Source: Ectothiorhodospira shaposhnikovii (GTDB taxonomy: Bacteria > Pseudomonadota > Gammaproteobacteria > Ectothiorhodospirales > Ectothiorhodospiraceae). From it: a DNA stretch of 64,000 bases. Below the pieces are notes generated by a model. The model ran no database searches, was not told the DNA's origin, and was given only the letters and a program-made list of their open reading frames with translations. Location of the stretch: assembly GCF_022227765.1 (NCBI RefSeq), contig NZ_JAJMLZ010000006.1, positions 124,001 through 188,000 on the forward strand, read 5' to 3'. Made by a program: the position numbers and the translations under genes. Within the stretch, counting starts at the first letter, position 1, and every line of letters begins with the position of its first letter. Shown here in pieces: positions 4,197-22,383 of the stretch.

Positions 4197-4209
4197 AGGC
4201 CGGTTCGGC

Positions 4210-4785
4210 TTAACGGATCAGATTCAGGATTTCCTTGAACTTCGGGTGGCGTGAGTCTGCCAGCCATTCAAACAGCACCGACTCGAAATTGGTGATGATC
4301 ACCCCGGCCCTGGCCATGCGGGCCAGGGCATTGGCCTTGTTGCGCGGGTCTCTGGAGCAGACGGCGTCTTCCACCACGAAGACCTGGAATCCGGCCTCCA
4401 CGAGCAGCAGGGCGGTCTGCAGCACGCAGACATGGGACTCCATGCCGCAGACCACCACCTGGGGCCGCTCGGCACGTTTCACGGCGCCCATGATGCCCTC
4501 GTCGCGGCAACAGGAGAAGGTGGTCTTTTCCAGCACCCGAACCGCCTCCGGCAGCATGCCCTGGATTTCACCGGCGGTGTGCCCGATACCCTGTGGGTAC
4601 TGTTCGGTTACCGTCACCGGGATGCCCAGCACGCCGGCCCCCTGGGCCAGGCTGCCGGCCCGTCGATAGACCTCACGGCGTGTGTCGGCGTCCATGGCCA
4701 CGGCCAGCTTTGCCTGGATGTCCACCACCAGGAGCTGGCTGTGTCCGGCACTGCACAGGGGGGAGGGTGGGGTGTGATTCATCAT
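4210..4785 (-). CDS. Isochorismatase-family cysteine hydrolase
   Basis: This 191-residue protein belongs to the isochorismatase-like hydrolases (nicotinamidase, YcaC and relatives). The catalytic triad is visible: D22 in LLVVDIQ, K87 in EKTTFSCC and C120 in ESHVCVLQT. The substrate cannot be told from sequence. It starts about 10 bp after the tolC stop on the same strand, so it is probably the last gene of a pcm-rhodanese-tolC unit. Two consecutive ATG codons (4785 and 4782) are possible starts. A hydrophobic segment follows the catalytic cysteine, as usual for the fold, and no signal peptide is seen, so it should be cytoplasmic. Confidence 0.85.
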   Translation of the reverse strand: MMNHTPPSPLCSAGHSQLLVVDIQAKLAVAMDADTRREVYRRAGSLAQGAGVLGIPVTVTEQYPQGIGHTAGEIQGMLPEAVRVLEKTTFSCCRDEGIMGAVKRAERPQVVVCGMESHVCVLQTALLLVEAGFQVFVVEDAVCSRDPRNKANALARMARAGVIITNFESVLFEWLADSRHPKFKEILNLIR

Positions 4786-6120: not shown

Positions 6121-6223
6121 CGGTGTCTCCGGCCCGGGCGGGCAAGAAGGAAATATTCCATCAGTGAATCCTGATTATCCTACCGGGAACCGGGAAAAAA
6201 TGCATAGGGGATCTGTCGGGACA

Positions 6224-17816: not shown

Positions 17817-18542
17817 TCATAGTCGGAAATTATCGCCCAGGTAGACTCGCCTGACCTGGGGGTCTGCCAGCACCACTTCCGGCGGCCCCTCGCTGATCAG
17901 GTGTCCGTCGCTCAGGATATAGGCGCGATTGCAGATGCCCAGGGTTTCACGGACGTTGTGATCGGTGATCAGTACCCCGATATTCCGGGAGACCAGATGG
18001 GTGATGATGCGCTGAATTTCGATCACGGAGATGGGGTCTACCCCGGCAAAGGGCTCATCAAGCAGGATGAAGGCCGGTTCGGTGGCCAGGGCGCGGGCGA
18101 TTTCCACCCGCCGCCGCTCACCCCCCGAGAGGCTGATGCCCAGGCTCTCGCGGATATGCATGATCTGAAACTCTTCCAGCAGGGATTCCATGTGCTCATG
18201 GCGCTGGCCGCGGCTGAGGTCGCGGCGTGTTTCCAGCACGGCAAGCAGGTTGTCTTCCACCGACAACTTGCGAAAGACCGAGGCCTCCTGGGGCAGATAG
18301 CCGATGCCCAACTGGGCGCGGGCATGCATGGGCAGGGGGGTGATGTCCCTGCCGTCCAGTTCGATGCGCCCACCGTCGCAGGGGATGAGGCCGACGATCA
18401 TGTAAAAACAGGTGGTCTTGCCGGCGCCGTTGGGACCCAGCAGGCCCACGACCTCACCGCTGTTCACCTGCAGTGATACACCGTCCACCGGCTTGCGGGC
18501 GCGGTACTGCTTGACCAGGTCGTGGGTCTGCAGACGACTCAT
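17817..18542 (-). CDS. lptB: LPS export ABC transporter ATP-binding protein LptB
   Basis: This 241-residue ATPase powers LptB2FGC, which pulls LPS from the inner membrane. Walker A is GPNGAGKTT (36-44), the signature is [15 protein letters not shown] and Walker B is [10 protein letters not shown]. The start overlaps the lptA stop by 4 bp. The partner permeases LptF and LptG are not in the window, as expected since they are usually encoded elsewhere. The order lptC-lptA-lptB-rpoN is conserved in gammaproteobacteria. Confidence 0.96.
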
Positions 18543-19111
18543 GGCGTCCCCTCGACAGGGGCGGGGGGCTGTTCCCTGGGCGTGAAGATGGCCTCGACGC
18601 GGCCGGTGTCCCCGGTGCGGGCCTCCAGCGTGGCCGTGCGCAGGTCATAGGTGATGCGGCTGCCCCGGAACTCGTCCGTGCCCTGTCGCACGCGGGCATT
18701 GCCGCTCAGTTCCATGCGTTGCTCGTTGGGGAGGAACTCCATCCGCGCGGCTTCGGCCCGGACTTCCCGCCCCTGCGGGTCCTGAGTGCGCAGGGTGGCC
18801 GGTTGACCTTCTGCGGTCATGCGTTCCAGCACCCGGCCCGGGGTATGGACGGTGACCGTATCGCCGCTGATTTCCGTGGCGCCCTGGGTGATGCGTACGC
18901 TGCCCCGGTAGGTGCTGATGCCCCGGTTGTCGTCCAGGGTGGCCGAGTCCGCCTCGATGCGGATGGGCAATGTCCGGTCCACCTGCGCCTGGAGTGGTCC
19001 GGCCGGCAGCAGGATGGCCAGGGCAGGGATCATGAACCACGTTCCAAGCCGCCGCCAGGGTGAGCATTGAATCGCTCCCTCGCCGTCTCTCCCGCGCAGG
19101 CGGGAGCCCAT
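18539..19111 (-). CDS. lptA: LPS transport periplasmic protein LptA (start uncertain)
   Basis: The C-terminal ~170 residues form the OstA/LptA beta-jellyroll that bridges LptC and LptD ([17 protein letters not shown], then [18 protein letters not shown]). A signal peptide ends at GPLQAQ. The start is unclear. ATG at 19033 gives a signal peptide with no positive charge. ATG at 19111 adds a basic n-region with WRRLGTWF and has GGAG 8 nt upstream, but its first codons lie inside a palindromic repeat. I give 19111 as the better choice. The ORF stays open to 19522 through the repeats and into antisense lptC, which is not credible coding sequence. Confidence 0.8.
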
Positions 19112-19211
19112 GCTTTTCACTCCGTGACTGGATTCCCGCTGGCGCGGGAATGACGACCCGGGGGAGGCCGGCCGCATTCCGTTGGACCTGGATTCCCGCT
19201 GGTGCGGAAAT
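19089..19211. repeat. Cluster of three palindromic repeats (dRS3-like) between lptC and lptA
   Basis: Three short palindromes lie in the 118-bp gap and at the start of lptA. CTCCCGC-GCAG-GCGGGAG is at 19089-19106, and ATTCCCGC-TGGC-GCGGGAAT, an 8-bp perfect stem, is at 19132-19151. ATTCCCGC-TGGT-GCGGAAAT, with one mismatch, is at 19192-19211. The last two are exactly 60 bp apart and share GGATTCCCGCTGG and AATGAC flanks. The middle one fits the neisserial dRS3 pattern ATTCCC-N8-GGGAAT. No transposase is nearby, so they look like a non-autonomous dispersed repeat. Confidence 0.75.
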
Positions 19212-19229
19212 GACTGACTGGGAACAGCC

Positions 19230-19793
19230 CTAATGGGGAACATAGACACCCCGTGCTTCACGTTTGAGTTCCAGAACTTCATGCCGCAGGTCCAGGAACA
19301 GCCCCAGACCCTCGGCCTCCTGATAGGTTGTCTGCAGACGTGCCGGGGCGTCGGTGACGGCCTGACGGGGACCCGGCCAGAGGGTGGTGTCCCGGGTGGT
19401 GATGGTGATCGGGCCCCGCTCGCCCTCGGCAGCGCGGTGGATGTGCACCTCGCCCAGCAATTTGACTTCATCGCCGGCGGGAGAGATCCAGCCCTGTTCG
19501 GCGCGCAGGGTCCAGGTGGCACCGGGGCTGTACCGCAAGATCAGTACCGGGGTCTCAAGCCAGCGGGACCCGTCTGCCTGGCGCTGCTCCATGCGCTGGC
19601 CGCGGAGCTGGTAACGGGGTTCACCCAGGGAGTCCATATGGATGGCCGCATACTGTTCCAGAAAGAAATCGGTCCCTTCGGTCGCCGCTTCTTCCAGTAC
19701 CCGGCGGCGTTCATCGGCGTCCCGGGCCAGCCAGAAGCCGACGGCCGCGACCAGAGTCAGCAGCAGGATCAGGAACAGTGAGGGCAGTTTCAT
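19230..19793 (-). CDS. lptC: LPS export protein LptC
   Basis: This 187-residue protein has one N-terminal membrane anchor (LFLILLLTLVAAVGFWLA, ~6-23) followed by a periplasmic LptC beta-jellyroll. It hands LPS from LptB2FG to LptA. Start overlaps the kdsC stop by 4 bp, so kdsC and lptC are translationally coupled. Sequence similarity in this family is always low; position between kdsC and lptA and the topology carry the assignment. The gap to lptA is unusually wide because of inserted palindromic repeats. Confidence 0.9.
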   Translation of the reverse strand: MKLPSLFLILLLTLVAAVGFWLARDADERRRVLEEAATEGTDFFLEQYAAIHMDSLGEPRYQLRGQRMEQRQADGSRWLETPVLILRYSPGATWTLRAEQGWISPAGDEVKLLGEVHIHRAAEGERGPITITTRDTTLWPGPRQAVTDAPARLQTTYQEAEGLGLFLDLRHEVLELKREARGVYVPH

Positions 19794-21328: not shown

Positions 21329-21390
21329 GATGCCGTCATGCTACCAATGCTTCAGGTGGGTTGAGCAAGATTATTTTCTGTCTTCATCGC

Positions 21391-22383
21391 TTACGCCGCT
21401 CCCCCGGCCGGACTCAGGCTCAGATACACCCAGGTCATGTAGCCGATGAAGAGCGCCAGCAGCACTCCGCCCTCCATCCGGTTGATGCGCCTTGGACGCC
21501 CCCGGAAACTGAAGGCCATGACGATGATCAGCAGGGTCAGGCCCACCATGACCGGAAAATCCCGCCACAGGGCATCGGCCGGTACGCCGGCGGGGCGGAG
21601 CAGACCCGGGATGGCCAGCACGCCCAGCAGATTGAACAGGTTGGAGCCCAGGATGTTGCCCAGCACCAGATCGGGTTCGTTGCGGCGGGCACTCATCAGG
21701 GCCGCCGCCAGTTCCGGCAGGCTGGTGCCGATGGCGACGATGGTCAGCCCGATCACCAGGTCGCTCACGCCCAGGGCGGTGGCGATGTTCACCGCTCCCC
21801 AGACCAGGGCCCGGGCGCTGATCAGCAGCAGCACCAGGCCGATCAGCAGCCAGAGAACGGCCCTGCCGGTGGAGACCGCCCGCGGAATCTCCGCCTCGAA
21901 CTCGCCCTGGATCGGGTCGGGGCCGTTGTTGCGTCCCTTGAGGCCGTCCCGCACCATCCAGGCCATGACCAGGATCAGGCCGCCCAGCAGGATCAGGCCG
22001 TCCATCCTGCCCAGGGTGCCGTTGAGTACCAGCAGGTAGGCCAGCACGCTGACCCCAAGGACCAAGGGCATTTCCTTGCGCAGGGTGGCGGAGGTGATGG
22101 CCAGAGGGGCGAGCAGGGCCGTCATGCCCAGGATCAGGCCGATATTGGCGATGTTGGAACCCACCGCGTTGCCGATGGCCAGCCCGGAGTTGCCCTGCCA
22201 GGCGGCAATGCCGGAAACCAGCAGCTCCGGCGCCGAGGTGCCGAAGCCGACGATGGTCAGGCCGATGATCATGGTGGGGATGCCCAGGTTGCGCGCCAGG
22301 GCGGCGGCACCGAAGATGAACCGGTCGGCACTCCAGACCAGAATGACCAGACCCAGCAGGACGGCGGTGATGGAAGTGAGCAT
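21391..22383 (-). CDS. yrbG: Sodium/calcium exchanger family protein (YrbG-like)
   Basis: This 330-residue membrane protein has about ten hydrophobic helices and the two inverted alpha-repeats of the Ca2+:cation antiporter family: GFGTSAPELLVS with GNAVGSNIANIG, and AIGTSLPELAAAL with GNILGSNLFNLL. It should exchange Ca2+ or another cation across the inner membrane; the substrate is not proven even for E. coli YrbG. It leads the minus-strand kds-lpt-rpoN run and diverges from the DUF72-like gene with only 38 bp between starts, so promoters must be compact or lie inside coding sequence. Confidence 0.92.
   Translation of the reverse strand: MLTSITAVLLGLVILVWSADRFIFGAAALARNLGIPTMIIGLTIVGFGTSAPELLVSGIAAWQGNSGLAIGNAVGSNIANIGLILGMTALLAPLAITSATLRKEMPLVLGVSVLAYLLVLNGTLGRMDGLILLGGLILVMAWMVRDGLKGRNNGPDPIQGEFEAEIPRAVSTGRAVLWLLIGLVLLLISARALVWGAVNIATALGVSDLVIGLTIVAIGTSLPELAAALMSARRNEPDLVLGNILGSNLFNLLGVLAIPGLLRPAGVPADALWRDFPVMVGLTLLIIVMAFSFRGRPRRINRMEGGVLLALFIGYMTWVYLSLSPAGGAA

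Follow-up and report, generated by a model that had tools for sequence, protein, structure and literature searches.

REPs of the CGTC-1 type carry a CGTC tag, an 8-bp stem that opens with complementary A,T, a 4-nt loop and an unpaired CCA tail, and they occur as many dispersed copies, mostly in head-to-head dimers with the tags outside and with conserved spacers (PMC3733652). The dRS3 elements are the CGTC-1 elements of Neisseria, and the excerpted text of the same source reports no association of CGTC-1 REPs with transposase genes (Di Nocera et al. 2013, PMC3733652). Intragenic REPs, including insertions at the N-terminus, are already described in it, and the palindromic elements RPE-4 and RPE-6 of Rickettsia are covered too (PMC3733652). 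The genus Ectothiorhodospira has 0 occurrences in the excerpted text, and no REPs at lptA were found in the literature searched, which consisted mostly of abstract beginnings.

The lptC-lptA junction described here belongs to a 64-kb stretch of DNA (the window) from the 3.34-Mb genome of an Ectothiorhodospira, a purple sulfur bacterium (the host). Both genes lie on the minus strand, and the lptC stop is the TAG at 19232-19230 (Table 1). On the same strand, genes that we take from their translations to be kdsC-like and kdsD-like are found 5' of lptC, and presumably lptB-like and rpoN-like genes, also named from their translations, are found 3' of lptA. The counterpart of lptA in E. coli is essential. 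Besides the ATGs at 19243, 19111 and 19033, the lptA frame has another one at 19177 (minus strand). Of the five junction ATGs listed, the one with the strongest Shine-Dalgarno (SD) energy is not in the lptA frame; it lies at 19067 (minus strand; -7.7, and -8.0 at its counterpart in E. lacustris), opens a frame of 140 aa in the host and could compete for ribosomes. Rfam gave sub-threshold matches only at the junction, CRISPR-DR28 with 20.2 bits over P1 (cut-off 35) and BjrC68 with 13.5 bits (cut-off 39), and the promoter and terminator scans returned 0 sites.

Table 1. Features of the lptC-lptA junction in the host, in window positions. SD energies were computed with a generic anti-SD and opening costs over -15 to +12.
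Feature	Positions	Strand	Properties
lptC	19230..19793	-	TIGR04409, E=1e-34; PF06835, E=1.6e-28
lptA (234 aa when begun at the ancestral ATG)	18539..19243	-	TIGR03002, E=3.5e-39, residues 87-222; PF03968, E=1.1e-26
Ancestral lptA ATG, 11 nt before the lptC stop (preferred start)	19241..19243	-	SD -6.3; opening cost 9.1 kcal/mol
Internal ATG, in frame and inside the dimer spacer, preceded by GGAG at 8 nt	19109..19111	-	SD -6.1; opening cost 21.8 kcal/mol
ATG in frame at the core of the signal peptide	19031..19033	-	SD -4.8; opening cost 13.2 kcal/mol
P1, CTCCCGC-N4-GCGGGAG, partner in the dimer, orientation opposite to P2	19089..19106	-	
P2, exact ATTCCCGC-N4-GCGGGAAT, CGTC tag and CCA tail	19132..19151	-	
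P3, CGTC-1-type REP monomer, 1 mismatch, orientation as P2	19192..19211	-	
Head-to-head REP dimer (P2, spacer, P1), 73 nt	19083..19155	-	dispersed copies; 60-copy alignment

The preliminary description of this DNA had placed three palindromes at the junction, the last two spaced by 60 bp and the middle one with the dRS3 consensus. All three were found where it had put them, the starts of P2 and P3 are exactly 60 bp apart, and P2 matches ATTCCC-N8-GGGAAT exactly. P2 and P1 are the halves of one 73-nt unit, and P3 is an additional monomer. The CGTC tag is present on P2 and P1, and P3 has AGTC, which is not among the variants named in the excerpted text of PMC3733652. The 8-bp A,T-first stem with its 4-nt loop is exact in P2 and has one mismatch in P3, while P1 taken alone fails it, its stem being 7 bp long and its core of the CTCCC type. 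The CCA tail comes directly after P2 and P3 and one base later after P1. The 73-nt unit is a CGTC-1 REP head-to-head dimer as this class is outlined in the excerpted text, and its earlier placing with dRS3 was sound, neisserial dRS3 being one member of the CGTC-1 REPs (PMC3733652).

In the window alone, if up to 3 mismatches are allowed, the palindrome pattern lies only mildly above chance, with 2 matches against a shuffle mean of 0.58 and 10 of 100 shuffles reaching 2. Genome-wide its count is far above chance. The full-genome search that had been suggested finds 81 exact copies of ATTCCCGC-N4-GCGGGAAT in the host genome, against 0 for a reversed control pattern, so the palindrome is a dispersed repeat and does not occur here alone. 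Exact copies number 202 in E. lacustris A-7Y (G004), 9 in E. magna B7-7 (G003) and 70 in E. shaposhnikovii DSM 243 (G002). The palindrome is thus confined to four of the 10 genus genomes, and the lack of any exact copy in the other six suggests that it was gained or spread within one group of the genus. With the 73-nt dimer as query, there are at least 52 matches in the host genome (40 of 114 first-look candidates scored), at least 42 in E. lacustris (40 of 181 scored), at least 41 in E. shaposhnikovii (40 of 110 scored) and 4 in E. magna (14 of 14 scored).

Sixty dimers were aligned, namely the two lptA copies (host and E. lacustris) and 58 others, drawn from the remaining matches of the host (29 of 51) and from those of E. 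lacustris, E. shaposhnikovii and E. magna (29 of 86). The aligned unit is CGTCATTCCCGC-loop-GCGGGAATCCA, a spacer of about 20 nt, then TGGACTCCCGC-loop-GCGGGAGTGACGG, and the 60 aligned dimers have their tags outside (head-to-head). In the consensus of the spacer, GGAC...GAAA...CTG, one or two changes would be enough to give a Shine-Dalgarno sequence and an ATG. Y1_Tnp genes (RAYT-type transposase) are present in 10 of 10 genus genomes. No transposase is named here as mobiliser of the REPs: out of 32 listed Y1_Tnp matches eight loci were examined, seven of which have no CGTC palindrome nearby, and the eighth (L096) has a weak match with 2 mismatches.

The junction was compared in nine of the 10 genus genomes, there being no match in G005, and also in three genomes from a different genus. 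In all nine, an lptA-frame ATG overlaps the lptC stop, starting 11 nt (seven genomes) or 14 nt (two genomes) before it. The distance from this ATG to a conserved LPI motif is 87 nt in G002 and G009, 96 nt in G008, 99 nt in G001, 102 nt in G006 and G007, 168 nt in E. magna, 258 nt in E. lacustris and 273 nt in the host. The last three are the insert-bearing species, with one genome each, and the REPs of the host sit between the ancestral ATG (19243-19241) and the signal peptide, in frame with lptA. The frame from the ancestral ATG has no stop through the insert in any of the three, and 273, 258 and 168 nt, less the 87 nt of E. shaposhnikovii (G002), are multiples of three. The junction comparison that had been proposed thus shows genus relatives outside these three species without the insert and with the same ancestral start. 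The claim that a mobile repeat had rebuilt the start of lptA stands in one part, as these relatives show that a repeat did enter the 5' part of the gene, but the ancestral ATG 19243, which the preliminary description had overlooked, is intact and in frame.

The stretch from the ancestral start to the internal ATG has 90 nt fewer in E. magna than in E. lacustris. The host carries CAGTCA twice, at +23 and +113, a distance of 90 nt; E. magna has it once, at +23, and in E. lacustris the second CAGTCA alone is intact. Since this second CAGTCA is part of the dimer spacer, the E. magna junction is probably a deletion from an older full array. Past the internal ATG, E. magna agrees in register with E. 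lacustris at 37 of 60 positions (equalled or bettered by 0 of 20,000 shuffles) and with the host at 30 of 60 (shuffle P 0.0004), and the P1 palindrome is worn away in E. magna. The insertion would be placed in the common ancestor of the host species, E. lacustris and E. magna. Elsewhere in the window, the alignment of the host with E. lacustris (G004:C46) breaks at about 4208-4211, 6207-6211 and 21385-21393, where E. lacustris has roughly 350, 200 and 140 extra bases, with a repeat-like match in the first.

The candidate starts can be compared by their SD energies and by the cost of opening the RNA around them. The SD energy and opening cost (kcal/mol) of the ancestral, internal and core ATGs are -6.3/10.5, -6.1/18.1 and -5.1/14.5 in E. 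lacustris and -5.0/9.8, +0.9/15.9 and -5.2/20.0 in E. magna. The ancestral ATG has the lowest opening cost among the in-frame ATGs in the host, E. lacustris and E. magna, and its SD energy is at least as good as that of the internal start in all three. The opening cost is not decisive, because the overlapping ATGs of the insert-free G008 and G001 cost 18.4 and 25.7 kcal/mol. The dimer folds as a single hairpin that includes ATG 19111 (-49.4 kcal/mol in the host, -42.0 kcal/mol in E. lacustris), and the 201-nt junction fold has z = -2.48, with 4 of 200 shuffles equally stable.

The start at 19033 does lack a positive n-region, as had been noted, and the ATG at 19111 does have GGAG 8 nt upstream and lies within the repeat spacer. 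Its proposed role as a start supplied by the repeat fares less evenly: GGAG and ATG occur together in both lptA copies and in none of the other 58, but this ATG is inside a hairpin and its E. magna counterpart has no Shine-Dalgarno sequence. Counted separately, GGAG occupies the SD columns of 2 of the 58 non-lptA copies and ATG the start columns of 5, and the rarity of the pair gives no fair probability, because the locus was chosen for that feature. Two copies (L078 and L080) have GGAG outside the aligned columns and no ATG there.

Between the host and E. lacustris, the extension (40 codons) has 11 nonsynonymous and 2 synonymous changes, with dN 0.133 and dS 0.07, and the part from the internal ATG to MIPAL has dN 0.193 and dS 0.304. 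The corresponding values are 0.023 and 0.25 for the signal-peptide core, 0.046 and 0.396 for mature LptA, and 0.027 and 0.316 for lptC. Differences occupy 13 of 120 sites in the extension and 321 of 2896 in intergenic DNA; the latter, with genes called by a simple longest-frame rule, has 25 indels, of which 18 have lengths not divisible by three, while the extension has 0 against about one expected, which is not significant. An extension without amino-acid constraint would fit a discarded n-region or an untranslated leader alike, and it may be untranslated, as it has no codon constraint and diverges like intergenic DNA. Codon constraint is not decisive as a test for the start, given the small counts and an insert that diverges like intergenic DNA, and the conserved TAT at the ancestral ATG is uninformative, TAT being 44% of Tyr codons. 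The placement of a 15-nt gap differs between the BLAST and the codon alignment, with 7 and 12 differences in 63 nt, respectively.

The reading preferred here, to which we give an even chance, is that the ancestral start is retained and that the REPs lengthen the front of the preprotein rather than supply a new start. A CGTC-1 REP array, consisting of a head-to-head dimer and one monomer, would have entered lptA shortly after its ancestral start, and LptA would still be begun at ATG 19243, which ribosomes ending lptC could reach because it overlaps the lptC stop. The REP codons would form a long cytoplasmic n-region, with 70 residues ahead of MIPAL and a net charge of +8, and this n-region would be removed with the signal peptide, so that mature LptA would be unchanged; ATG 19111 may add some secondary starts. 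The E. magna length difference, which at exactly 90 nt equals the distance between the two CAGTCA of the host, counts for the retained start. Frame conservation is thin evidence for it, with two informative length changes and about 1 in 9 by chance. An n-region of 70 residues is unusual and counts against the retained start, and so does the combination of GGAG and ATG, which is peculiar to the lptA spacer copies. This combination is central to the possible but doubtful alternative that the start has moved into the repeat, so that ATG 19111 would be the chief start of lptA and everything from there to 19243 a leader. The signal peptide would then have 42 residues (37 in E. lacustris) and a cationic n-region. 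The moved start agrees with the pair being found in host and E. lacustris lptA and in 0 of 58 other dimers, with a 34-nt run over GGAG and ATG that is identical in these two species, with cationic residues (WRR, GR, PRR) before the hydrophobic core, between the internal ATG and MI, in the three species, and with the lack of codon constraint upstream. However, the hairpin gives it an opening cost of 21.8 in the host, where the ancestral ATG costs 9.1, and of 18.1 in E. lacustris, where the ancestral one costs 10.5, E. magna has the ATG without an SD (+0.9), an SD of -6.1 or better is common (14.6% of positions in this stretch), and the frame from the upstream ATG is kept in three species.

It seems unlikely that the spacer of the REP dimer became a real start inside a hairpin by two small departures from the family consensus (GGAC to GGAG and CTG to ATG) and that an essential envelope gene now takes both its start and its translational control from it. 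The use of two starts is quite improbable: ribosomes entering at 19243 would melt the REP hairpin and expose GGAG and ATG 19111, and long and short preproteins would give the same LptA. Both starts are in frame, have similar SD energies (-6.3 and -6.1) and have the hairpin between them, but the scheme is a prediction from sequence, and the internal SD is absent in E. magna. Very hard to credit is the idea that the REPs are passive intergenic insertions and that lptA begins at 19033 or else at some non-canonical codon, ATT 19072 for example. In its favour, the divergence of the insert resembles that of intergenic DNA and ATT 19072 has an SD of -7.0 in the host, yet the start at 19033 comes without a positive n-region and ATT 19072 is not conserved, the E. 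lacustris codon being TTT.

With insert-free relatives and three insert-bearing species, the lptA junction offers a clean case, putatively dated, of a REP array tolerated in the 5' end of a gene. It is also a warning that the start closest to a strong Shine-Dalgarno sequence may turn out to be an artefact of a repeat, and that relatives are the place to look for the start. If the spacer start were used, the locus would show how REPs can supply start sites, and REP dimers would in that case form a lasting reserve of sites close to being starts.

Compared with CGTC-1 REPs as they appear in the excerpted text of PMC3733652, the repeat shares the CGTC tag, the ATTCCCGC stem, the 4-nt loop, the CCA tail, the head-to-head dimers, the conserved spacer and the dispersed copies, and it differs in P1, which carries a variant ACTCCC-type stem. 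Neisserial dRS3 forms large clusters, according to the same text, whereas here, in another genus, the usual unit is the 73-nt dimer. Like the intragenic REPs and RPE-4 and RPE-6, the lptA insert is a palindromic repeat kept in frame within a protein gene, in a frame that is open and unbroken to the LptA domain if 19243 is the start. Unlike in those cases, as far as they are outlined there, the putatively translated insert precedes a removable signal peptide, and the mature protein may therefore stay the same. Intragenic REPs are a known kind in that text, and the lptA insert is another case of it.
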